From NCBI GenBank assembly GCA_946617595.1, contig CAMOKN010000020.1, forward strand, positions 1 to 34,657: DNA of 34,657 bases. The letters are read 5' to 3'. The notes under the pieces are model-generated. The model made no database searches, was not told the DNA's origin, and was given only the letters and a program-made list of their open reading frames with translations. This document shows, piece after piece, positions 9,367 to 24,195 of this stretch; the first letter of the stretch is position 1; every line of letters begins with the position of its first letter. The position numbers and the translations under genes are program-made. Source of the stretch: an uncultured Clostridia bacterium. GTDB taxonomy: Bacteria > Bacillota > Clostridia > Oscillospirales > Ruminococcaceae.

Positions 9367-11937
9367 TCACATCGTTATCAGCAGATGTCCGCTTGTAACG
9401 TCGTTATACACCATGCAGTCCCTGCCGCTGACATCGTACACCTTCACGATACCGGCAAGCTCGTTTTCGCTGTCAAATTCAGATGTTATGTCTGTGCAGC
9501 CCGCCAACCGCTCCGGCGAATAGTGCAGCGTCTTTTCATTGCAGAACACGGCGGTGTAGAGTATTCCGGCTTCCACAAGATCCTGGAAAATATGACTGCC
9601 GTAGGAGAGCTCCGGATTATATCCTGCTTTGGTCTCCTCGACTTCGCAGATAATGCTGAATTCGCTGATATCCGCGAAAGCTGTCGGCACTCCCAGCTCC
9701 GGCGACGACGTACCCACGCGCCCCGGAACTATCAGCATCATGTGCTTATCCTTTCCGCGGAAGTGCCAGTTTATCTTCCCGACAAGGCTTGCGACAGCGG
9801 TCTTTTTATTGTACGGCATATCGTAATATTTCACTGGGTCAACATACACGATGATATCGAGCTTTGCTGTGCGGGATATACCCATTGACGCGCCGACGCT
9901 TTCGAGCAGGATATTCTGCCGAGGGATATTCTCCGGTATCGGCATGCCGCCCGTGCTGTTCATCACCTGCAAGGGGCGGCATTGCAGCAGGTCAATGGAA
10001 TACTCGCCGTTGTCCGAGATGTTAATTGTGAACTCAATATCCACGGGATTCCCGTACTCTTGCTGTATACACTGCATCAGGCGGCGCATACGGTCCATTA
10101 TCTCCTTGTTTTCGACTATGCCCTTGCAGGATATAAACCGCACGTCCTGCCGCCTTCCCATTTCACGAAGCCGGCTTTCTGCGTCAAAGTCGTGTTCAAG
10201 CAGGAGCTTTCCCACATACTTCGGAATGACCGGCTCGATAACACGAAGCGGTAACTGCTCGATATTCCGGGCGATAACATTTACGGCTTCGGTGTTTCCC
10301 TGTGAGAACTTGTGCCGGTCTGCGGAAGAAGTATGTGTCGTGCGTTCGGGCATATCAAGGCTGACGATACGAGGATAGGAGCCTTCCTTGCGGTCAACTG
10401 CCGATGTTCCCAGCCCCATAACGAGCCGCAGCATACCCGCCGACGGGTCGGAGCTTTGCAGTATGCGGTACGGGCTGTAGGAGTAGCCCACACCCGCCGC
10501 GCAGGGCATATAATAATCGCCGTAGTATGACCCGGAGACCCGCTGTACCAACAGCGCCATCTGCTCATCGCGCTTGTCAAGTCCGCGGCGCTTGCGATAG
10601 TCCAGCGCTGACAGGCTCATAGAGCTTGCATAAACTGTCTTTATTGCGGTTTCAAGCTCGGCGAGACGCTCCTCGGGTGTTCCTCTGTTCGGGCAGAACA
10701 CCGACTCGTACTTGCCCGCAAAGGCATTCCCGAATCCGTCCTCAAGAATACTGCTGGAACGGACGATATACGGGTCATTTCCGTAATACTCGATGATGTG
10801 AGTGAACTGCTCACGCATTATGTCGGAGAAGCTGCCGTTCAGCAGTCTGTCAGCGAACTCGTCCGCGAGGGTGAAATACCCCTCGTCGGTGCGCTGCTTT
10901 ACGCGAAGCTCCCAGAAGCCGTTGTCAACGATGTATGTGTAGTACACATCAGAACCGACATAGAACGAATCGTGGGGCTCGATGACCTCCGCAATGTCGG
11001 GCTCGTTGTTCCGGATTATCGCGCGTGCAAGCAGCATACCGCAGGCTTTTCCACCAATCATTCCCGTGCCGATCATGTGGTCGCGGACTGCAAAATAATC
11101 CTCCGGCGTGAAGTTACGCTTTATCATATCGCGCATTTTTTCGTCGCGGCTCATTATGATATTGCACATACGGCTGCACTCTTCGCTCACGTCCTCACCT
11201 CTGCGGTATTCCCGTTTGACGTGGTTGAAGAACCTGTCCCAGGAGTCGATGTAGCGTTCGTCAGTCGCTCTCTGGGCGTTGCCCATTGTGTAGTAGAACC
11301 TGCTCGATCTCACGCCGTCAAGTATCGGTCTGTACTCACCTGTAGCAGGTTCGTAGGTATGCGGAAGGAACATTGTGCCGGAGTTCCTGTCATGCACTTT
11401 TTCGGGTCGGATATAGTAATTCCTTTTGTCGGAATATACATCAAGAAATATCTGTGCTGTACCGAGTATTTTATTTACCGAACCGAGCGAGTGTTTTCCG
11501 CGTTTTATCGGGAAGTACGAAACACAGTCAGGCGAGGACAGAAACGGTGCTGTCACCTTGAAAAAGTTGCCCATCATAAGGTCTGTCGCCCAAGCTGTCT
11601 GTAATTCGGAAAGGCAGTCGAAAATATAGAAGACCTCTCTGCCTTCCTTTTCAATGACATTATGAATGTCCGCGGCGAATGTCTCGAACCTGTGAGAAAG
11701 CGGTATCAGAACCCTTTTTATTTCCGTGAAGTAACCGGTCAGCGGCTCGGTGTCCGCATAACGAAGATAAACGATGCTGCGTTTATCGCGCATCGCCTGT
11801 GCAATGAACGGCGTCACGAATGTCCGGAATTCCGATAACTCCGATATCCTCCACACCACGTTATCGCCCAGCCGTATGCTGTCGAGTGCCGTGTCCATTT
11901 CGGGAATGCCCGAGTTTATCCTGTCAAATGCTGCCAT
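9367..11937 (-). CDS. PEP/pyruvate-binding (PPDK N-terminal-like) domain protein with a KaiC/RecA-like N-terminal region
   Basis: ...GMIGGKACGMLLARAI..., YIVRSSSILEDGFGNAFAGKYESVF, LLQCRPLQ, YGSHIFQDLVEAGILY. Start at 11937 (MAAFDRIN) supported by SD GAGG. Confidence 0.78.
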   Translation of the reverse strand: MAAFDRINSGIPEMDTALDSIRLGDNVVWRISELSEFRTFVTPFIAQAMRDKRSIVYLRYADTEPLTGYFTEIKRVLIPLSHRFETFAADIHNVIEKEGREVFYIFDCLSELQTAWATDLMMGNFFKVTAPFLSSPDCVSYFPIKRGKHSLGSVNKILGTAQIFLDVYSDKRNYYIRPEKVHDRNSGTMFLPHTYEPATGEYRPILDGVRSSRFYYTMGNAQRATDERYIDSWDRFFNHVKREYRRGEDVSEECSRMCNIIMSRDEKMRDMIKRNFTPEDYFAVRDHMIGTGMIGGKACGMLLARAIIRNNEPDIAEVIEPHDSFYVGSDVYYTYIVDNGFWELRVKQRTDEGYFTLADEFADRLLNGSFSDIMREQFTHIIEYYGNDPYIVRSSSILEDGFGNAFAGKYESVFCPNRGTPEERLAELETAIKTVYASSMSLSALDYRKRRGLDKRDEQMALLVQRVSGSYYGDYYMPCAAGVGYSYSPYRILQSSDPSAGMLRLVMGLGTSAVDRKEGSYPRIVSLDMPERTTHTSSADRHKFSQGNTEAVNVIARNIEQLPLRVIEPVIPKYVGKLLLEHDFDAESRLREMGRRQDVRFISCKGIVENKEIMDRMRRLMQCIQQEYGNPVDIEFTINISDNGEYSIDLLQCRPLQVMNSTGGMPIPENIPRQNILLESVGASMGISRTAKLDIIVYVDPVKYYDMPYNKKTAVASLVGKINWHFRGKDKHMMLIVPGRVGTSSPELGVPTAFADISEFSIICEVEETKAGYNPELSYGSHIFQDLVEAGILYTAVFCNEKTLHYSPERLAGCTDITSEFDSENELAGIVKVYDVSGRDCMVYNDVTSGHLLITM

Positions 11938-11959
11938 ATCAAACCTCACAAATAAACAT

Positions 11960-12004
11960 AATGGCACTGAAATAACACTTTTGTTATTTTCAGCGCCATT
12001 GCCT
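11960..12004 (-). promoter_or_regulatory. 5'-leader hairpin with motif AGGCAATGGCGCTG
   Basis: Minus strand AGGCAATGGCGCTGAAAATAAC-AAAAGT-GTTATTTCAGTGCCATT, just downstream of the promoter. Confidence 0.55.
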
Positions 12005-12298: not shown

Positions 12299-13084
12299 AT
12301 GAATGTTGAAAGAATAAAAAATGCAGAAATTATGCTTGACAATGTCGGAATGACATACGATGCGGCAGACGGCAAGAAAGTACAGGCGCTCACAAGCGTT
12401 ACAATGGATATACAAAAAGGCGAGTTCATCTCTTTGCTCGGACCGTCGGGCTGCGGCAAGACAACGCTTCTGCGCATAATCGCTGACCTTTTGCAGCCTA
12501 CCTCCGGTAAAGTGCTGATAGGCGGTGAAACCCCGAAAGAAGCCCGTCTGAAGCGCAAGTACGGAATGGTATTCCAGAGTGCGGTGCTGTACGACTGGCG
12601 AACTGTGATAAAGAACATCGAGCTTCCGCTTGAGATAATACACGAAGGCAAGGCAGAACGCCGCGAGCGTGCTGTAAAAATGCTTGATCTTGTCGGTCTC
12701 TCGGAGTTTGCGAACCATTACCCGAGACAATTATCGGGCGGTATGCAGCAAAGAGTTGGTATAGCACGGGCGCTGGCATTGCAGCCGGAGATACTGCTTA
12801 TGGACGAACCGTTTTCGGCGCTTGATGAGTTCACGCGAGAAAAGCTGCACATAGATCTGCTTAAAATCTGGCGAAAGACGAACAAGACGATAATCTTCGT
12901 CACACACAACATTTCCGAGTCGGTATTCCTTTCCGACAGGGTGTGCGTACTCTCACCCCACCCGGGCAGGCTCTCCGCGGTGATCGACATTGATCTGCCG
13001 CGACCAAGAACTATGGAGATAAGAGACACACCCGAATTTACCGCGCTTGTGGCAAAGGTTAGGAACAGCTTTGAGGGAGTTTAG
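12299..13084 (+). CDS. ABC transporter ATP-binding protein (nitrate/sulfonate/pyrimidine-type)
   Basis: GPSGCGKTT Walker A, LSGGMQQRVGIARAL signature, LLMDEPFSALDE. Confidence 0.95.
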   Translation: MNVERIKNAEIMLDNVGMTYDAADGKKVQALTSVTMDIQKGEFISLLGPSGCGKTTLLRIIADLLQPTSGKVLIGGETPKEARLKRKYGMVFQSAVLYDWRTVIKNIELPLEIIHEGKAERRERAVKMLDLVGLSEFANHYPRQLSGGMQQRVGIARALALQPEILLMDEPFSALDEFTREKLHIDLLKIWRKTNKTIIFVTHNISESVFLSDRVCVLSPHPGRLSAVIDIDLPRPRTMEIRDTPEFTALVAKVRNSFEGV

Positions 13085-13096
13085 GAGCTGATATGA

Positions 13097-13918
13097 ATGA
13101 AAGCAATCAGAAAAATAGTCAACAGCAAGGCGTTTGTAACGCTTGTATGGATCGCAGTAATTATCATTATATGGGAGATTTGCGCGGCGCGGGTAGCCGA
13201 GGTCAAGCGAACTCCCGAGAATGTTCTTCCGCATCTGAGCGGCGTTATTGATTCACTTACAAGCGACCGTAAGATAAACGGTTCGCAGACTGCACTCGGA
13301 ATGGTGCTTGAAAACGCGGGCGCAACTCTTTCCCGGGCGGCGGTGGGTTATGTCATCGGAATAGCGGCAGGATTCATACTTGCTCTGCTGATGAGTCTTT
13401 CGGGTATCATCGAAAAGATCGCGTTTCCGTATCTTATGCTGATCCAGCTTATACCGATACTCGGAATGGCACCGATAATCAACGCTATAACCGGTGATAT
13501 TGCAGTAAGCCGTATCGTGATAGCAGCGATACTCACGTTCTATCCTGTCGCTGCAAACACCCTTGCCGGGTTCAAAGCGGTACGCCGTGAAGCACACGAG
13601 CTGATGTACTCTTACGCGGCAAACAAACTCCAGCTTTATACGAAAACGATGATACCCGCCTGCATACCGTACTTTTTCACAGGGCTGAAAATATCGGCTC
13701 CTATGGCGATAACGGCGTCTATACTCGTAGATACTCTTCAAGGCGGTATCGGGCTTGGCTGTCTGCTTTCGCAGTCGCTCAAAGGCGCAATGACAAGATA
13801 TGTGTTCTGGGACATCGTATTTTTCAGCGCAGTTATCGGAATATTGAGCTTCTACATAATGGGGCTCATCGAGACGCTGCTCTGTCCGTACAAGAGACTC
13901 GAAAAGAAAGGAAGATGA
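13097..13918 (+). CDS. ABC transporter permease (SsuC/TauC-like)
   Basis: Hydrophobic TM protein; EAH...AANKLQLYTKTMIPACIPYFFTGLKISAPMAITASIL matches the BPD permease loop. Confidence 0.9.
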   Translation: MKAIRKIVNSKAFVTLVWIAVIIIIWEICAARVAEVKRTPENVLPHLSGVIDSLTSDRKINGSQTALGMVLENAGATLSRAAVGYVIGIAAGFILALLMSLSGIIEKIAFPYLMLIQLIPILGMAPIINAITGDIAVSRIVIAAILTFYPVAANTLAGFKAVRREAHELMYSYAANKLQLYTKTMIPACIPYFFTGLKISAPMAITASILVDTLQGGIGLGCLLSQSLKGAMTRYVFWDIVFFSAVIGILSFYIMGLIETLLCPYKRLEKKGR

Positions 13919-13922
13919 GCGT

Positions 13923-14729
13923 ATGGCTGCAAAAGTGAACAAGAAACGGCGAAGCGCTGTGCAGTCGGTCGTATGCCCGCTCATTTTCGGTATAGCTCTT
14001 ATCGCCGCATGGCAGACCGGATTACTGCATATAGTGCTGAACACCGACGAATATGTCCTGCCGTACCCGACGCGCATAATCACGATAATTGGTGAGAACA
14101 GCGACAAGATAATGACGAATGTATGGGCTTCGGTGCAGGTCGCTGTGCTGGGACTTATCTTCGGGTCACTTCTCGGCTACCTTATAGCAATATTTGCCAC
14201 AGTATTCCCGAAATATGGCAGCGGCGGACTTACGATAGTTTCAGCGTTCAACGCAATACCGATAGTCGCGCTCGCACCGGTCATCATCAACTGGACAAAG
14301 GACGTAAGCTCCGAAGCCGAGGTGAGAAGCGCAGTAGCAAAGGTGATAGTCGTAACGGTCGTAAGTATGGCGTCAATGAGTGTAAACGCTTACCGCGGAC
14401 TTACCGAGCTGCCGCCGTTCTCGGACGATCTGATGAAGACTTATGCTGCAGGCAGGCTCACCGAGTTCGTGAAGCTGCGGCTCCCGAACAGCGTTCCGTA
14501 CATCTTCACAGCACTCCGGGTAAGCGTTCCCGGAAGCGTCATCAGCGCACTTGTAAGCGAATACTTTGCCGAGTATATCACCGGTGTCGGGCGGCAGATA
14601 CGGGAGAACATTCTGATAGCGCAGTATTCCACAGCCTGGGCATATATCGTTACAGCTTGTATCATAGGTATCGTGATGTACGCGGTGCTTATGGTAATAG
14701 AAGCAATAGTCCTGAAAAAGCGCAGGTAA
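13923..14729 (+). CDS. ABC transporter permease (SsuC/TauC-like)
   Basis: TYAAGRLTEFVKLRLPNSVPYIFTALRVSVPGSVISALVSEYF. Confidence 0.9.
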   Translation: MAAKVNKKRRSAVQSVVCPLIFGIALIAAWQTGLLHIVLNTDEYVLPYPTRIITIIGENSDKIMTNVWASVQVAVLGLIFGSLLGYLIAIFATVFPKYGSGGLTIVSAFNAIPIVALAPVIINWTKDVSSEAEVRSAVAKVIVVTVVSMASMSVNAYRGLTELPPFSDDLMKTYAAGRLTEFVKLRLPNSVPYIFTALRVSVPGSVISALVSEYFAEYITGVGRQIRENILIAQYSTAWAYIVTACIIGIVMYAVLMVIEAIVLKKRR

Positions 14730-14780: not shown

Positions 14781-15947
14781 ATGAAATTTTCCGGAAAAAC
14801 ACTTGCGGCTGTTATTGCCGCAGCAATGATCGTATCGACATTCTCGGCTTGCGGCTCGTCCGGCTCCGGCAGCAGCACAACCACAACAGCAGCACAGGCT
14901 GAAACGACCACAACGACGGCTGCTGCCGCAGAATCGACCGAATTTGTCACAACAGAGGGCGCTGAGACTGCTGCAGCATCTGACGGCGACAGGATAATCG
15001 CAGCTGCACAGGCGGGCAAGGTCGGCAACTGGGGACTCGGCAACGAGTATGAGATACTTGCCCTGCTCACAAAGTACGGACAGGAGAACAGGTTCTTATC
15101 GCAGGCGTTCGATATGGACGGCTTCGATGATGATTCGATAACCCTCGCGTCCGCGATGACCTACAATGAGCTCGGGCTTGTGCAGAACAGCTATGAGGGC
15201 GGTTACGGCTACGGCGACAGCGTCGGCATCATCGACATGAACAACGAGGGTGTCGCGATGCTCGAAGACAATCTGTTCTGTACCAAGGCATTCGCGGAAG
15301 CAAATCCCAACACCGTGAAAGCATTCATTTCCGCTTCTATGAAGGGCTGGAAATATGCCTGCGAAAACCCGGAGGAGGCTGCACAGATAGTATTTGAAGC
15401 AGGTTCTTCCGTTTCCTCCGATCATCAGGCATATATGGCATCGGAGGTAAAGAAGCTCGTTGAGACAGACACAAACGGCAGCACCGTGACCGATTATGGC
15501 AAGATGGACGAAGCGGCAATGCAGCAGACTCTCGACCTTGCAAAGCAGTACATCTCCCTCGATGACAGCACAGCGGCAGAGAAATTACAGGCGCTCACCC
15601 TCGATGATATCCGCAGTACAGCATACTGGACAGACGCTATAGCAGGCAGCTTTGACGCTCCCGAAAAGACAGATGTTTCGATCCAGCTCAAATGGCTCCC
15701 GCAGGCGCAGTTCATGGGTTATTTCGTCGCAAAGGCTAAGGGCTACTATGACGAGGTTGGGCTCAATGTAACGATAGTTTCCGGCGGCGGTGACATCGGT
15801 GAAACAACTGCGGTAAACAACGGTACTGTAGATTTCGGCGTAACGTGGGTATCGAACCTCATATCCGCTAACGCAGGCGGTATGGATCTGCTTGAGATCG
15901 CGCAGGTATATCAGCGTTCCGGTCTGGTGCTTGTTTACAAGAAATGA
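14781..15947 (+). CDS. NMT1/THI5-like ABC substrate-binding lipoprotein, apparently circularly permuted
   Basis: Lipobox FSACGSS, Thr/Ala-rich linker, then the usual C-terminal lobe (KVGNWGLGNEYEILALL...) followed by the usual N-terminal lobe (VSIQLKWLPQAQFMGYFVAKAKGYYDEVGLNVTIV...). Confidence 0.85.
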   Translation: MKFSGKTLAAVIAAAMIVSTFSACGSSGSGSSTTTTAAQAETTTTTAAAAESTEFVTTEGAETAAASDGDRIIAAAQAGKVGNWGLGNEYEILALLTKYGQENRFLSQAFDMDGFDDDSITLASAMTYNELGLVQNSYEGGYGYGDSVGIIDMNNEGVAMLEDNLFCTKAFAEANPNTVKAFISASMKGWKYACENPEEAAQIVFEAGSSVSSDHQAYMASEVKKLVETDTNGSTVTDYGKMDEAAMQQTLDLAKQYISLDDSTAAEKLQALTLDDIRSTAYWTDAIAGSFDAPEKTDVSIQLKWLPQAQFMGYFVAKAKGYYDEVGLNVTIVSGGGDIGETTAVNNGTVDFGVTWVSNLISANAGGMDLLEIAQVYQRSGLVLVYKK

Positions 15948-15956
15948 GGTAATCAT

Positions 15957-17312
15957 ATGGATATGATAATCAAAAACGGAACAGTCGTAAATGCGTCCGG
16001 TACTTTCAAGGCAGATGTCGGCATCGAGAACGGAAAGATCGTCTGTATTGCAGACAGCATAAGCGTTGGCGGCTGCGAAAATGTTGTTGACGCAAGCGGA
16101 AAGCTGGTGCTACCCGGCGCGATAGATGCCCACACCCACCTTGCTATGCCCTTCGGCGGCACGGTATCATCGGACGACTACTTTGCGGGAACAAGAGCGG
16201 CTGCGTGCGGCGGAACTACCACTGTATTTGACTTTGCGCTACAGGATTTTGGCGAAAAGATGACCGATACTGTAAAGCGGCGTGATGCGCTCTGCGCGCC
16301 CGTTGCGGCAGTTGACTACTCGTTCCATGTTGCGGTAAAAGATGTCGAGAACGGACTTATCGACGGCATCGGCGAATGTGTCGATATAGGAGTTCCGTCA
16401 TTCAAGGTGTTTATGGTGTACGATTTCGGAGTTACCGACGGCGTATTCTTTCAGGTACTGCAAAAGGCAAAGGAGGTCGGCGCTCTGATCGAAGTCCACG
16501 CCGAAAACAACGAGCTTGTGAACACACTCACGAAAAAGTATCTTTCCGAGGGCAAGACGAGTGCCTGGTATCATTATTTGTCCCGTCCCGAGTTTGTCGA
16601 AGGTGAAGCAGACGAACGCGCAATACAGTGGGCAAAGGCGACCGGCGCTCCGCTCTACATAGTCCACCTCGCGGATAAGCAGGGCGTAGAGGCTGTCACA
16701 AAGGCAAAAGACGAGGGATATGAGATATATGCGGAGACCTGTCCGCAGTACCTCGAATTTACAAGTGAAGTATATAAGCGCGAGGACGGCAGAAACTTTG
16801 TCTGCTCGCCGCCTATGAAGGGCAAGGAAAGTCAGGATGCGATATGGGAGGCTATAAAACGCGGCGATATCGACACCGTTGCTACCGACCATTGCCCGTT
16901 CCAGTCGTATGAGAAGGACTGGGGTAAGGACGATTTCTCGAAGATACCCAACGGCTGCGCGGGCATCGAGAATATGTACCCGTATATGCTGTCGGCGGCG
17001 AATACCGGGCGGATAACCTTTGAGCAGGCTGTGGCGCTGTGCTCGGCAAATCCCGCAAGGATATTCGGCTGCAAGGACAAGGGTGCGATCTCTGTCGGTA
17101 AGGACGCGGATATCGTGATCTATGACCCTACAATTGATTTTACGATAACGAACGAGAAGATGCACTCCGACTGCGACCATACGATATGGGAGGGCGTGAC
17201 GGTTCACGGATATCCCGTTCAGACCTACTCAAGAGGCAGGCTCGTTTACGACAACGGTGAGTTTGTCGGCGAGAAGGGCTGGGGCAAATTCGTAAAGTGC
17301 AGCTTAAAGTAA
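15957..17312 (+). CDS. hydA: Dihydropyrimidinase / D-hydantoinase
   Basis: MDMIIKNGTVVNASG..., GAIDAHTHLAMPFGG, FKVFMVYDFGV, EVHAENNELV, ETCPQYLEF, TDHCPF. Confidence 0.93.
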   Translation: MDMIIKNGTVVNASGTFKADVGIENGKIVCIADSISVGGCENVVDASGKLVLPGAIDAHTHLAMPFGGTVSSDDYFAGTRAAACGGTTTVFDFALQDFGEKMTDTVKRRDALCAPVAAVDYSFHVAVKDVENGLIDGIGECVDIGVPSFKVFMVYDFGVTDGVFFQVLQKAKEVGALIEVHAENNELVNTLTKKYLSEGKTSAWYHYLSRPEFVEGEADERAIQWAKATGAPLYIVHLADKQGVEAVTKAKDEGYEIYAETCPQYLEFTSEVYKREDGRNFVCSPPMKGKESQDAIWEAIKRGDIDTVATDHCPFQSYEKDWGKDDFSKIPNGCAGIENMYPYMLSAANTGRITFEQAVALCSANPARIFGCKDKGAISVGKDADIVIYDPTIDFTITNEKMHSDCDHTIWEGVTVHGYPVQTYSRGRLVYDNGEFVGEKGWGKFVKCSLK

Positions 17313-17321
17313 GGTGATACG

Positions 17322-18794
17322 ATGCTGAAGATCAGAGAAGAAGCGGCAAGGTGTCTGCTGTGCGCGGACGGCGCCTGCACAAATGCCTGTACGCAGGGCT
17401 TCGACCCTGCAAGAATGGTACGCGCGGTGCGATTCGAGAACGAAGCCTGCGCCGGCAGATTCACAGATGCTGCAAAATGTGCGGAATGTGACGGCAGATG
17501 CGAAAACTCCTGCATACATTATGACACACGCATTCGCATACGGGATATCACAGCGCAGCTTCCGAAACCGGCTGAACACGATTCCGAGCCCGATCTTTCG
17601 ATAGATTTCTGCGGTGTTCGGTGCGAAAATCCGTTCTTCCTTTCCTCCTCTATCGTTGCGGGCGACTATGATATGGTCGCCCGTGCGTTCGAGGCAGGCT
17701 GGGCGGGTGCAGTATTCAAGACGGTAGGTTTTCTGATACCGGAGGAGGTATCTCCGCGTTTCGGCGCTATCGGGAAAGAGGGAACGCCGTTCATCGGCTT
17801 TAAGAACCTTGAACAGATATCAGACCACCCGTTGGAATACAATCTCGGTGTGTTCAGGCGGCTGAAAGCGAACTACCCCGGAAAGGTGCTGGTCGCGTCG
17901 ATAATGGGGCAGAACGATGAGGAATGGGTGCAGCTCTCGAAGCTCGTTACCGAGGCAGGCGCGGATATCATCGAGTGCAATTTCAGCTGTCCTCATATGA
18001 GCGGCAGCGGGCTCGGCTCCGACGTCGGGCAGGACCCCGCTCTCGTGAACCGCTATACCGAGCTTGTAAAGAGTGCAACGCATCTTCCGGTGCTTGCAAA
18101 AATGACCCCGAACATCGGGAATATGGAAGTTCCGGCAATTGCGGCAGTCGAAGCGGGCGCAGACGGTATAGCGGCAATAAACACGATAAAAAGCATACTC
18201 GGGATAGATGCAGAAACGCTTGAAAGCAGCCCGTCGGTAGGCGGGAAATGCTCGGTCTCGGGATATTCCGGAAAGGCAGTCAAGCCGATAGCGCTGCGGT
18301 TCATACACGACCTTGCGAAATGCGGCAGGCTCGCCGGTACGGAGCTCAGCGGAATGGGCGGTATCGAAACGTGGCACGACGCTCTGGAGTTTATCCTGCT
18401 CGGCTGCAAAAACATACAGGTGACGACTGCGGTGATGCAGTACGGCTACCGCATCATAGACGACCTTATCGCGGGAACGAAAGCGTATATGCAGTCTCAC
18501 GGCATCTCAAAAATATCTGAGCTTGTAGGTGCGGCGCTCCCGAATATTGTTCCGGCGGATACGCTCGACCGCAGTACGGTGGTGTTCCCGAAATTCGACA
18601 GGAACGGCTGCATCGGCTGCGGAAGATGTTACATATCCTGCAGCGACGCGGGGCATCAGGCTATAACAGTTGAGGACGGCAAGGCGAGGCTGCACGCGGG
18701 AAAATGTGTCGGCTGCCACCTGTGTATGCTGGTCTGTCCGACTGGAGCGATAACCGATAATAACAAGAGGGTAACGAAGCCCAAAGGCGGGTGA
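17322..18794 (+). CDS. preA: PreA-like dihydropyrimidine dehydrogenase with an extra PreT-like N-terminal Fe-S domain
   Basis: N-term CLLCADGACTNAC..CAECDGRCENSC; DHOD-like NPFFLSSSIVAGDYDMVARAF..., NFSCPHMSGSGLGSDVGQDP; C-term CIGCGRCYISC and CVGCHLCMLVCP. Confidence 0.9.
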   Translation: MLKIREEAARCLLCADGACTNACTQGFDPARMVRAVRFENEACAGRFTDAAKCAECDGRCENSCIHYDTRIRIRDITAQLPKPAEHDSEPDLSIDFCGVRCENPFFLSSSIVAGDYDMVARAFEAGWAGAVFKTVGFLIPEEVSPRFGAIGKEGTPFIGFKNLEQISDHPLEYNLGVFRRLKANYPGKVLVASIMGQNDEEWVQLSKLVTEAGADIIECNFSCPHMSGSGLGSDVGQDPALVNRYTELVKSATHLPVLAKMTPNIGNMEVPAIAAVEAGADGIAAINTIKSILGIDAETLESSPSVGGKCSVSGYSGKAVKPIALRFIHDLAKCGRLAGTELSGMGGIETWHDALEFILLGCKNIQVTTAVMQYGYRIIDDLIAGTKAYMQSHGISKISELVGAALPNIVPADTLDRSTVVFPKFDRNGCIGCGRCYISCSDAGHQAITVEDGKARLHAGKCVGCHLCMLVCPTGAITDNNKRVTKPKGG

Positions 18795-18799
18795 GTGGT

Positions 18800-19978
18800 A
18801 TGGCTATATCATTATCACAGCTGTGCGTGAACGCCGAGAAAAGCTACGCTATGAAGCTGATAGCGGGCTCCGGCGGTCTCGAAAATACCGTGCGATGGGT
18901 GCATATCGTTGAGGACAGCGAGGTGCCGGATTTCCTGCACGGGAACGAGCTCATATTCACCACCGGTATCACCCACAGCGGCACCGATTGGCTCAAAGGT
19001 TTTGCGGAAAGCCTGAAAGCAAAGGGCGTTGTGGGGCTGGTGGTGAACATAGGTCCGTACATTGAGTCTGTGCCGTCGCCGGTGATAGTGTACTGCGAAC
19101 AGAACGATCTGCCGCTTTTCACGATACCGTGGAGCACGAGAATAGTTGATATATCCTATGACTTCTGCCGCAGGATAATCGGCAACGAAAAGCACGAAAG
19201 CACGGTGGGAGAAGCGTTCAGGGCAATAATAAAAGACCCGGACGCACTGAAGAATTACGCCGAGCTGTTAAGCAGGGCGGAATTCGGACAGAAAAGCAGC
19301 TACACCGTGATCTCGGCTTGCGTCATATCGAACGGCGCGAATGTCACCAAGCAGGCGGCGCAGACAATGGATATGAGTATATGGAGAACGATAAGGAGCT
19401 CCGGACAACGCTCGACATTGTTTATGCACGACGGCTCACTCGTCGCGGTGCGGCAGAACAGCAGTGATGCTGACATCTCGCGTCTGTGCGCGGAGCTCGA
19501 AGCTGTGCTGAAGGAGCCTGCAAATGAGGTTTATATCGGAGTATCTCATAAGCTTGACGACTTGCCCTCGGTAAGCGAGGGATATGAGCAGGCATCTGCG
19601 GCGCAGTTTATGTCTATGCTCGGAAACGGAGGCTGCACAAGATACGGTGATATCGGCGTGATGAAGCTGGTGTTCGGCATAAAAAACACGAATATACTGC
19701 GTGAATTTGTGCGGGAGAATCTCGGTACGCTACGCAGATTCGATGTTGAGAGAAACGCCGATTACTGCGACACTCTGAAGCTGTACCTGACATATAACGG
19801 CAGCGTCAGCGAAGCCGCGGAAAAAGCGGGAGTCCACCGCAATACTATAAATCTCAAAATGCGTGCGATAAAGGAAATACTCGGAAAAGAGCTTGACGAC
19901 AACACGAAAAGCTCGCTTATACTTGCATTTCGTATCGAAGAAGTGCTTGAACTGTACGACAAAAGGAGTGATTTTTAA
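18800..19978 (+). CDS. PucR-family transcriptional regulator
   Basis: N-terminal purine-catabolism-regulator-like domain; C-terminal LKLYLTYNGSVSEAAEKAGVHRNTINLKMRAIKEILG HTH. Confidence 0.9.
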   Translation: MAISLSQLCVNAEKSYAMKLIAGSGGLENTVRWVHIVEDSEVPDFLHGNELIFTTGITHSGTDWLKGFAESLKAKGVVGLVVNIGPYIESVPSPVIVYCEQNDLPLFTIPWSTRIVDISYDFCRRIIGNEKHESTVGEAFRAIIKDPDALKNYAELLSRAEFGQKSSYTVISACVISNGANVTKQAAQTMDMSIWRTIRSSGQRSTLFMHDGSLVAVRQNSSDADISRLCAELEAVLKEPANEVYIGVSHKLDDLPSVSEGYEQASAAQFMSMLGNGGCTRYGDIGVMKLVFGIKNTNILREFVRENLGTLRRFDVERNADYCDTLKLYLTYNGSVSEAAEKAGVHRNTINLKMRAIKEILGKELDDNTKSSLILAFRIEEVLELYDKRSDF

Positions 19979-21315
19979 TGGCAACCGAAAATATCGCTGA
20001 AAAGATTAAGCACGACCACTGCACCTATAATTTACAGTCGTGGTCAAAGCAGAAGGGGCTTGATCCTATCCCGATAGAAAAAGCCGAGGGCATCTATATG
20101 TGGGACTACGACGGCAACCGCTATACCGATATGTCCTCCCAGCTCGTCAATCTGAATGTGGGTCACGGTAACCGTGATATCATTGACGCGATAAAGGAGC
20201 AGGCGGAGAAATACTGCTACCTGTCGCCGTCCTACGGCAGCGAGCCGCGAGGTGAGCTTGCAAGAAAGATCATCGAGCTTATGCCCAACAATATGGGCAA
20301 GGTGTTCTTCACGAACGGCGGTGCAGACGCCAACGAGAATGCAGTGAAGATAGCGCGTATGTTCACCGGCAGACCTAAGGTGCTGTCACGCTACCGCAGC
20401 TATCACGGCTCCACCTTCGGCGCGGGAAGCCTTACCGGCGAGCCTCGCAGACAGCCCCTTGAACCGGGAGTACCGGGCTTCGTGAAGTTCTTCGACCCGT
20501 ATATCTACCGTGATGATCTGCCGTTTAAAACGGAAGAAGAAGCCTCCGCTTATTATGTGAAGCGGCTTCGTGAGCAGGTGATATACGAGGGCGCAGACAA
20601 CATCGCCGCCATCGTGATGGAGACCATAACCGGCTCCAACGGCGTTATCATACCGCCGGAGGGCTATCTTCCGGGAGTACGGAAGATATGCGACGAGTTC
20701 GGGATAATGATGATCTGCGACGAGGTAATGGCGGGCTTCGGACGCACGGGAAAGATGTTCGCATTTGAAAATTTCGGTGTGAAGCCCGATATCGTCAGTT
20801 TCGCAAAGGGAGTTACCTGCGGTTATGTGCAGCTCGGCGGCGTAGTTGTAAGCAGGAAGATCGCGGAATACTTTGACGATCATCTGCTGTCCTGCGGGCT
20901 TACATACAGCGGACACCCGCTTGCCTGCGCGGCGGGCGTGGCGTGCCTGAACTTCTACGAAAAGACGGATGTTCTCGCAAATGTCAACAAGTCCGGCGCA
21001 GAGCTCGGCAAGTGCCTGGAAGAAATAAAGTCAAAGCATAAGAGCGTCGGAGATGTGCGGTATATCGGCTTGTTCTCGGCAATAGAGCTTGTTAAGAACA
21101 GAGATACCCGCGAACCGCTGGTGCCGTATGGCAAAGACCCGGAGGGAGTTATGGGAAAGCTCATCGGAGCGCTGAAAAAGAAAGGCTTTATGACTTATTC
21201 CCACGAAAATATGATACTCATTTCCCCGCCCCTCATCATTACTCCCGAGCAAATACGCGAGGAAATGGCAAAGGTCGATGAAGTGCTTGACGAAGCGGAT
21301 AAGCTTGCAGATTAG
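19978..21315 (+). CDS. Class III aminotransferase (predicted beta-alanine transaminase)
   Basis: GGADANENAVKIARMFTGRPKVLSRYRSYHG, IMMICDEVMAGFGRTGKMFAFE, SFAKGVTCGYVQLGGVV. Confidence 0.92.
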   Translation: MATENIAEKIKHDHCTYNLQSWSKQKGLDPIPIEKAEGIYMWDYDGNRYTDMSSQLVNLNVGHGNRDIIDAIKEQAEKYCYLSPSYGSEPRGELARKIIELMPNNMGKVFFTNGGADANENAVKIARMFTGRPKVLSRYRSYHGSTFGAGSLTGEPRRQPLEPGVPGFVKFFDPYIYRDDLPFKTEEEASAYYVKRLREQVIYEGADNIAAIVMETITGSNGVIIPPEGYLPGVRKICDEFGIMMICDEVMAGFGRTGKMFAFENFGVKPDIVSFAKGVTCGYVQLGGVVVSRKIAEYFDDHLLSCGLTYSGHPLACAAGVACLNFYEKTDVLANVNKSGAELGKCLEEIKSKHKSVGDVRYIGLFSAIELVKNRDTREPLVPYGKDPEGVMGKLIGALKKKGFMTYSHENMILISPPLIITPEQIREEMAKVDEVLDEADKLAD

Positions 21316-21332: not shown

Positions 21333-21761
21333 ATGGCAGAAATACGCTATAAAGACGCGACGGCGTGCAAGCTGTCCGATTTCGTCACGCCGGATAAATT
21401 CAGAACGGTGACTTATGAGCAGCTTCGTTACCCGGGCGGGATAACCGAGATACCGGTGGAGATACTGCTCAAAAAGGACACGGCAAAGAGGCTCAGCTTC
21501 AAGGTCTCGCGTGACGGTATGCTGTACGGCTTCGCACGGATAAGACCGGCAGTTAAGAAGAAATTCGGAACGGATAATGCGAAGCTCTACATAAACGACT
21601 GGGACGACAAATTTGTGATGATATTCGAGCTTGAGGGTATCGGCGAAAAGGCGTACATAGTCACTGCGGACGAGGTCGTGTACCTGATCGAGAACTGTAC
21701 GAGAGTACCGCAGCAGAGAGTTCCCGCGAAAAAGGGCTTTATTTTCAGAAAGGACAAATAA
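21333..21761 (+). CDS. Conserved-looking hypothetical protein inside the pyrimidine cluster
   Basis: 142-aa ORF with SD GGAAGG; collinear between catabolic genes. Confidence 0.7.
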   Translation: MAEIRYKDATACKLSDFVTPDKFRTVTYEQLRYPGGITEIPVEILLKKDTAKRLSFKVSRDGMLYGFARIRPAVKKKFGTDNAKLYINDWDDKFVMIFELEGIGEKAYIVTADEVVYLIENCTRVPQQRVPAKKGFIFRKDK

Positions 21762-21762
21762 T

Positions 21763-23025
21763 ATGTATAAATGCAGCGAAAAAAGAATGGAAGACAAAAT
21801 CACCACATTTTCAAAATACGGTGACGCGGGTCACGGCGGTATCACAAGATACTCGCTGTCCGATGAAGCGATAATGGCAAGAAAAGAGTTCATCGACCGT
21901 ATGTTGAGTATCGGTGCGAAGATCGAGACAGATGATGTCGCAAACCTCTACGCTACCATTCCCGGCAGCGACCCGAACGCAAAGCGCATCGTAATGGCAT
22001 CACACTGCGATTCCGTAAAGAACGGCGGCAACTATGACGGTATCCTCGGCGTAATGAGCGCAATGGAAGTCCTCGAAACGGTAGTCGAGCAGAACATTCC
22101 CCATAAGCACCCTCTCACCGCCATGATCTGGACGAACGAGGAAGGTTCGCTCTATCCGCCGGCTATGATGTGCTCCGGTATCGTGTGTTATGACTATCTG
22201 CCCGAGGATATCCGCAGCAAGTTCAAATACGAGGATATGATGCAGTCCAAAAGCATTCTTGACCCGACAAAAACCTTCGGTCAGGCGCTTGAAAGATCGG
22301 GTTTCAAGGGCGATAAGAAGTACAGACTTGACCCCGACAGATACCTCTATATGTTTGAGACTCACATCGAGCAGGGTCCTATCCTCGAAGATGCCGGAAA
22401 CGACATCGGTGTAGTTGACTGCGTACTCGGAATGTTCAACTACCGTATCAAATTCTTCGGTCAGACCACCCACGCGGGAACTTTCCCGATGCCGAAGCGC
22501 AGGGACGCATTCTATGCGGCAGCGCAGGCGCTCTGTTACCTGCACACGGAGATAGACAAGCTCGGATATTCCGATCTCGTCTATACGACCGGTGAGGTGG
22601 TTTGTCACCCCTGTGTGCATACCTGCGTGCCGGATTACTTCGACTTTTCCTTCGATGCAAGACACGAGAAGCCCGAGGTGCTCGAAAAAGTCCTTGCTAT
22701 CGTCAAGAGCCTTGCGGACAAGGAATGGTCGGGCTGCACCTGCACCGTCGAAAAGGCTTGGAACCGCGATACCGTTTACTGGGACAAGAAGCTGGTGGGA
22801 TATGTCAAGGCTGCCGCGGAGGAATGCGGAGTTTCACATCAGTACATCCACTCCGGCGCGGGACACGATGCGCAGTTCGCTTCGTATATGCTGCCGACCA
22901 CGATGATATTCGTGCAGTCAAAGGACGGACTCTCTCACTGTGAGCCGGAATTCTCATCGGTAAAGCATTGCACCGAGGGCGCGACCGTTATGCTGAACGC
23001 CGTTCTTAAAGCCGATAATGATTGA
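21763..23025 (+). CDS. M20-family beta-ureidopropionase / N-carbamoyl amino acid hydrolase
   Basis: MASHCDSVKNGGNYDGILGV, WTNEEGS, METHIEQGPILED, HSGAGHDA, HC. Confidence 0.93.
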   Translation: MYKCSEKRMEDKITTFSKYGDAGHGGITRYSLSDEAIMARKEFIDRMLSIGAKIETDDVANLYATIPGSDPNAKRIVMASHCDSVKNGGNYDGILGVMSAMEVLETVVEQNIPHKHPLTAMIWTNEEGSLYPPAMMCSGIVCYDYLPEDIRSKFKYEDMMQSKSILDPTKTFGQALERSGFKGDKKYRLDPDRYLYMFETHIEQGPILEDAGNDIGVVDCVLGMFNYRIKFFGQTTHAGTFPMPKRRDAFYAAAQALCYLHTEIDKLGYSDLVYTTGEVVCHPCVHTCVPDYFDFSFDARHEKPEVLEKVLAIVKSLADKEWSGCTCTVEKAWNRDTVYWDKKLVGYVKAAAEECGVSHQYIHSGAGHDAQFASYMLPTTMIFVQSKDGLSHCEPEFSSVKHCTEGATVMLNAVLKADND

Positions 23026-23037
23026 GGTAAGAACGAT

Positions 23038-24195
23038 ATGAGCAGAGAATTTATTGTTCCCGCGAAGATATATACCGGAGAAGGCAGTCTGGAGCTTGCA
23101 GAAAAAGAACTTTGTACAATGGGTGACAGGGTGCTCATCGTTACCGACCCGGTGGTGATAAAGCTGAACTGCTTTGAGAAGCTGACAGCAATGCTTTCAA
23201 AGAACAGAGTTCCATACACGATCTATTCCGATGTTACGGGCGAGCCTACCGACACGATAGTAAACGCGGGACTTGCAAAATACGAGGTCGAGGACTGCGA
23301 CTGCATGATAGCGGTCGGCGGCGGAAGTCCGATTGATACGATGAAAGCGATAGCGGCACTTTCCGTGAACGGCGGAAAGATATCCGACTATATGGGAAAG
23401 GTGATAAAGGGGAAAATGCCGCCTATGGCAGCGATACCGACAACAGCCGGTACAGGCTCCGAGGCGACAAAGTTCACGGTCATCACCGACAGCAAAACGG
23501 ATATCAAGATGCTGCTGAAAGGCGACTGTCTTATCCCGTCGCTTGCAGTCATCGACCCGGCGTTCTCAATGTCCTCGCCCAAAAGCGTTACTGCCTCGAC
23601 AGGGCTTGACGCGCTCACTCACGCGGTGGAGTCTTATACGTCGCGTCTCGCCCAGCCCCTTACCGATGCCGTTGCAATATCCGCAGTCAAGCGTATTATG
23701 AAGTATCTGCCTGTCGCGTACAGCGACGGGACGAACACCGAAGCAAGAACGCAGATGTCGATAGCGGCACTTGAAGCGGGTATTGCGATAAACAATGCGT
23801 CTGTTACGATAGTTCACGGAATGAGCAGACCGATAGGGGCGCTGTTCCACGTTCCTCACGGGCTGTCGAACGCGATGCTTCTGGAAAAATGCATTGGCTT
23901 TGCGCTTGACGGAGCTTACGGGCGATTTGCAGACCTCGGCAGAGCAGTGAACGCTGCTGACAGCACCGACAGCGATGAAGCGGCGGCGAAGAAATTTCTT
24001 GCGAAACTCGGTGAGATATGCAGAATATGTGAGGTCCCGACACTTGCTGACTACGGCATAGATAAGGTAAAATTCATGCAGAGCGCCGGTAAAATGGCAG
24101 ATGATGCGCTTGCAAGCGGAAGCCCCGCGAACACCGTAAAGCCGGTAACAAAGGAGAATATTCTTGAAATATACAGCTCTCTCTGGGATAGATAA
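23038..24195 (+). CDS. Iron-containing alcohol dehydrogenase (predicted malonate-semialdehyde/3-hydroxypropionate dehydrogenase)
   Basis: AVGGGSPIDTMKAIA, TTAGTGSEATKFTVIT, GLDALTHAVESYTS, HGMSRPIGALFHVPHG. Confidence 0.92.
   Translation: MSREFIVPAKIYTGEGSLELAEKELCTMGDRVLIVTDPVVIKLNCFEKLTAMLSKNRVPYTIYSDVTGEPTDTIVNAGLAKYEVEDCDCMIAVGGGSPIDTMKAIAALSVNGGKISDYMGKVIKGKMPPMAAIPTTAGTGSEATKFTVITDSKTDIKMLLKGDCLIPSLAVIDPAFSMSSPKSVTASTGLDALTHAVESYTSRLAQPLTDAVAISAVKRIMKYLPVAYSDGTNTEARTQMSIAALEAGIAINNASVTIVHGMSRPIGALFHVPHGLSNAMLLEKCIGFALDGAYGRFADLGRAVNAADSTDSDEAAAKKFLAKLGEICRICEVPTLADYGIDKVKFMQSAGKMADDALASGSPANTVKPVTKENILEIYSSLWDR

Follow-up and report, generated by a model that had tools for sequence, protein, structure and literature searches.

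A PreA-type dehydrogenase is encoded in a 34,657-nucleotide stretch of DNA from an uncultured Clostridia bacterium (here called the window). It carries an additional iron-sulfur domain and lacks an FAD/NADPH module, which raises the question of the donor from which it receives its electrons. By analogy to a homologous enzyme of the same architecture we consider it very probably to be a clostridial ferredoxin-dependent dihydropyrimidine dehydrogenase (PydAc).

Domain composition and conserved residues of PydAc

The PydAc gene (17322..18794, + strand) starts with ATG and encodes 490 aa according to ORF reading, profile matches and fold. The protein is composed of an N-terminal Fe-S domain (aa 1-85), an FMN domain of the PreA/DPD type (aa ~91-405) and a C-terminal 2x[4Fe-4S] domain (aa ~422-480). 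Residues 91-481 matched the NCBIfam profile PreA (NF006183) with 561 bits at a cut-off of 335, and Pfam assigned DHO_dh as well as a C-terminal 4Fe-4S dicluster, both motifs of which were found (C430-C440 and C462-C472).

The N-terminal domain contains the motifs C11-X2-C14-X4-C19-X3-C23 and C53-X2-C56-X3-C60-X3-C64 (17352..17513, + strand). No Fer4_20 match was obtained in residues 1-85 by the Pfam search of the window protein; in four other fused proteins (G023, G393, G090 and G066) the N-domain passed the Fer4_20 cut-off directly. A profile of 85 fused-type N-domains matched the PreT N-domain profile with a probability of 100 and an E-value of 8e-42, which is optimistic because the PreT profile came from an alignment that also contained some fused rows. 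The motif pair CX2CX4CX3C ... CX2CX3CX3C was present in 82 of 92 fused relatives, far above chance. In an alignment of 93 fused proteins each of the eight N-domain cysteines was kept in 91-93 sequences and the eight C-domain cysteines in 92-93; the window protein has all eight in either Fe-S domain. The profile matches and the cysteine conservation bear out the earlier note, which had described a PreT-like N-terminal Fe-S domain on a PreA with two C-terminal 4Fe-4S motifs.

Residues N162, E164, N220, S222, C223, N287 and T288 were invariant across the 93 fused proteins. We take them to be the equivalents of the uracil-site residues N609, E611, N668, S670, C671, N736 and T737 of pig DPD, judging from the alignment and from the DPD structures. 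The PreA FMN domain of the window protein carries all of them.

Among solved structures mammalian DPD (PDB 1gte, 1h7w) was the top match by sequence and by fold. The AlphaFold2 model of PydAc had a pTM of 0.81 and matched pig DPD with an E-value of 7e-27. The superposition on DPD was partial (TM 0.53-0.56 relative to query length), which the missing middle domains and the low confidence of the loops would lead one to expect.

Composition of the Pyd gene cluster

PydAc is surrounded by a complete Pyd cluster on the + strand. Genes for an ABC transporter, a lipoprotein and the dihydropyrimidinase PydB (15957..17312; TIGR02033, 497 bits, above cut-off) are located upstream. Downstream follow a PucR-type transcriptional regulator (18791..19978; PF07905, PF13556), the PydD candidate (19978..21315), an ORF of 142 aa (21333..21761), the PydC candidate (21763..23025) and the PydE candidate (23038..24195). 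PydD is a class III aminotransferase and likely a beta-alanine aminotransferase, based on its profile match and cluster position. Profile matches point to a ureidopropionase/carbamoylase of the M20 family for PydC, and to an iron-type alcohol dehydrogenase, likely a malonic semialdehyde reductase, for PydE. The 142-aa ORF had no Pfam match; in related clusters it recurs at the same place, between PydD and PydC, with 31-74% identity. Clusters with the same core were found at 17 loci of varying completeness, seven from the genome_contigs set and ten from genome searches. PydA-B-C-D-E corresponds to the published Pyd set (PMC7332683).

This gene content bears on the substrate. UacX of C. difficile has the same FAD-less, PydA-like architecture, with ferredoxin use proposed, and works in uric acid degradation (PMC12507026); the window protein might likewise act on another substrate. 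However, UacX has other gene neighbours, whereas the Pyd cluster is complete here and every equivalent of the DPD uracil site that was checked is conserved. We regard another substrate as very unlikely, the least probable of the alternatives weighed in this study.

Search for a PreT in the genome

Profile searches of the cluster found no FAD/NADPH gene in it or next to PydAc, and at this locus no PreT adjoins or is fused to the PreA as in PreTA. The earlier note's statement that the cluster lacks both an FAD/NAD(P)H module and a PreT gene was thus confirmed. Elsewhere in the genome, contigs C57 and C296 each encode one FAD/NADPH protein that contains a Fer4_20 domain. The C296 protein was rejected as PreT, since it is an NfnB adjoining NfnA. 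The C57 protein is an orphan of 410 aa (G000 C57:12381-13610, L003).

An unlinked flavoprotein, either the C57 protein or NfnB, could dock to PydAc and feed its N-domain, which would render the enzyme NAD(P)H-dependent in the cell. The C57 protein resembles PreT in its layout of Fer4_20 and FAD/NADPH domains and shares 32% identity with E. coli PreT. However, it is as near to NfnB (34%); for clostridial PreTs that adjoin PreA the identity to E. coli PreT is 40-46%. In the tree it grouped together with its homologues in the NfnB branch and apart from 14 PreTs (SH-aLRT 100), and it has Glu at the position of PreT's Gln. Of 101 family genomes 13 have a C57-like gene, namely this genome and 12 others. 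None of these 12 carries a PydAc, which is not significant alone (Fisher p 1.0), and G343, from outside the family, is the single one of 12 other PydAc genomes that has a C57-like gene. As this co-occurrence is weak, the case against C57 depends on the tree and on the Gln/Glu position, and on both grounds it was rejected as the missing PreT. Moreover, a PreT partner would duplicate the N-domain, because PydAc already has the one that PreT would bring. NAD(P)H dependence by way of such a partner is therefore very unlikely in our view. No true preT was found in the genome assembly, which is 87.7% complete, and one could lie in the missing part.

Fused and PreT-associated PreA proteins in Clostridia

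A PreA-type protein was present in 23 of 392 Clostridia genomes. Next to complete PreAs without N-domain a full PreT was found in 13 of 14 cases, compared with none of 13 fused proteins (Fisher p 7e-7). Of the latter, seven come from the 392-genome sample, five from the family genomes and one is the paralogue from the genome studied here, with the window protein excluded; a fifteenth short match (L154) was truncated and omitted from the PreA count. The fourteenth PreA without N-domain (L140) has beside it just a PreT stub of 135 aa that holds the Fe-S domain.

In the 12 other genomes with fused PydAc no classifiable stand-alone PreT was found. Outside the classified loci, PF14691 matched four frames in G343, whose 496 and 705-710 aa exceed the 410-450 aa of a PreT, and, in one further case, the PydAc of G090 itself. 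The best 80 relatives in genome_contigs were all fused, with no PreT-like gene within 4 kb; 57 of them have at least 2 kb on each side. Across whole genomes, these data support the view that the fused enzyme replaces PreT rather than being a PreTA that lacks a part. They also agree with the idea, raised beforehand, that such fusions systematically occur without preT.

Comparison with known systems and the electron donor

The architecture described above is already known. PydAc of Clostridium chromiireducens (A0A399ILH0) has been purified, and either reduced ferredoxin or methyl viologen served it as electron donor for the reduction of uracil (Wang et al. 2020, PMC7332683). Its activity with ferredoxin was documented by detecting the product at 1 mM ferredoxin, with no kinetics (PMC7332683). 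By architecture and context both proteins are alike: an FMN domain and two Fe-S domains are combined in one ORF without FAD/NADPH domain, and the gene belongs to the Pyd cluster of a strictly anaerobic bacterium. The window differs in its organism and in a cluster that adds the PucR regulator, the 142-aa ORF and an ABC transporter whose binding protein is permuted. The window protein is a further member of an enzyme class described in 2020 rather than a new type of enzyme, because architecture and assay were published then as PydAc (PMC7332683). The novelty implied by the earlier note is consequently not upheld; its proposal of a ferredoxin-coupled anaerobic enzyme gains support by analogy with C. 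chromiireducens. What interest remains lies in side results, above all an orphan subfamily and a probable change of cluster ligand, both treated below.

The window protein shares 58% identity with E. coli PreA over 389 aa, and its N-domain is homologous to that of PreT. In contrast to the NAD-dependent PreTA of E. coli, it has no PreT FAD/NADH module and its N-domain is fused to PreA; in fused proteins the Gln ligand position is not kept. The genome survey also supports that the label 'NAD-dependent PreA' is misleading for the fused enzyme.

Genes for pyruvate:ferredoxin oxidoreductase (PFOR) and NfnAB are present in the genome. Reduced ferredoxin, e.g. from PFOR, would give single electrons to the N-terminal clusters. 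As in DPD, the electrons would then reach the FMN through C-terminal clusters that the other subunit of a presumed dimer contributes. There uracil or thymine would be reduced to the dihydro form, with Cys223 as putative proton donor. PydB, PydC, PydD and PydE would convert dihydrouracil via N-carbamoyl-beta-alanine, beta-alanine and malonic semialdehyde to 3-hydroxypropionate as the predicted end product.

The architecture as such requires just a one-electron donor, and as the published enzyme also takes methyl viologen (PMC7332683), flavodoxin or another low-potential carrier could replace ferredoxin. However, ferredoxin works with the homologous enzyme, and it fits the PFOR/NfnAB metabolism of this genome. 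Such a carrier appears to us even less probable than the docking flavoprotein, and ferredoxin is retained as the putative donor.

Proposed origin of the fused form and a probable change of a cluster ligand

In a quick tree without bootstrap the fused forms grouped together as a single clade (SH-aLRT 99); the split L140 form was its sister, and both lay inside the PreT-associated clostridial PreAs. L140 has a long branch in this tree. It is a split FAD-less form (G488:C2) whose PreT stub lies beside PreA in a Pyd cluster. This stub-plus-PreA arrangement corresponds to the layout of C. pasteurianum (PMC7332683). L140 is likely an intermediate between PreTA and fused PydAc.

In the pig DPD structure of Dobritzsch and colleagues from 2001, Gln156 is reportedly a ligand of an entry cluster. 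In a combined alignment E. coli PreT, 13 clostridial PreTs and the L140 stub all carry Gln at this position, and none of the 13 fused proteins compared does. The second N-domain motif of the fused proteins has an extra, fourth cysteine, so that from the sequences a change of an N-domain cluster from Cys3-Gln to Cys4 ligation is likely.

An orphan subfamily of fused proteins

A second fused FeS-PreA gene, coding for a paralogue of about 500 aa that is 52% identical to the window PydAc, was found in the same genome (G000 C219:8473-9663; L006, L160). No Pyd genes were present around this locus. The orphan kind represented 73 of the best 80 matches in genome_contigs; it is widespread in gut and rumen anaerobes outside Pyd clusters and is commoner than the Pyd-cluster enzyme. 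It was missed by the 2020 survey because a PydB neighbour was required there (PMC7332683).

The sampled orphan members were a well supported clade with the exception of the long-branch L020. Near-fixed changes separate them from the Pyd-cluster clade, among them I166L, H225N and G136C; active-site differences are included. Dihydropyrimidinase was absent at E 1e-60 from two genomes that have the orphan type alone. No neighbour was common to more than 13 of the 73 orphan loci, and the most frequent ones were discounted as members of large generic families or as frames read on the opposite strand of the orphan gene.

Taken jointly, FAD-less DPDs may have arisen once in Clostridia by loss of the FAD/NADPH module of PreT via a split intermediate. 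The fusion would have switched an N-domain cluster from Cys3-Gln to Cys4 and re-tuned it for ferredoxin. The orphan subfamily would then have left the Pyd pathway, spread in gut and rumen anaerobes and come to serve another purpose, e.g. electron disposal, by reducing pyrimidines or some related ring. It would be missed by preT-requiring screens for bacteria that inactivate 5-fluorouracil. We hold this combined reading tentatively, as plausible while leaning slightly against it as a whole. Screens of gut bacteria for pyrimidine or 5-fluorouracil reduction via preT plus preA would miss PydAc itself as well.

The transporter genes of the cluster

The ABC transporter upstream of PydB is encoded on the + strand by an ATPase gene (12299..13084), two permease genes (13097..13918 and 13923..14729) and a substrate-binding lipoprotein gene (14781..15947). 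The lipoprotein belongs to the NMT1/THI5 family and is likely the binding protein of a pyrimidine importer. It is circularly permuted, since the beginning of the family is matched by aa 298-388 and a later part by aa 168-224. Its best fold match was OpuAC (E 5e-4), based on a model of modest confidence. The permuted form was found in ten other Pyd-cluster loci as well, and six of seven Clostridia genomes with it have a Pyd-cluster PydAc. A permuted binding protein of a different class is TpMglB-2 (PMC4990184). Upstream of the transporter genes, the - strand (9367-11967) encodes a protein of 866 aa that contains the ATP-binding domain of pyruvate phosphate dikinase (PPDK_N).
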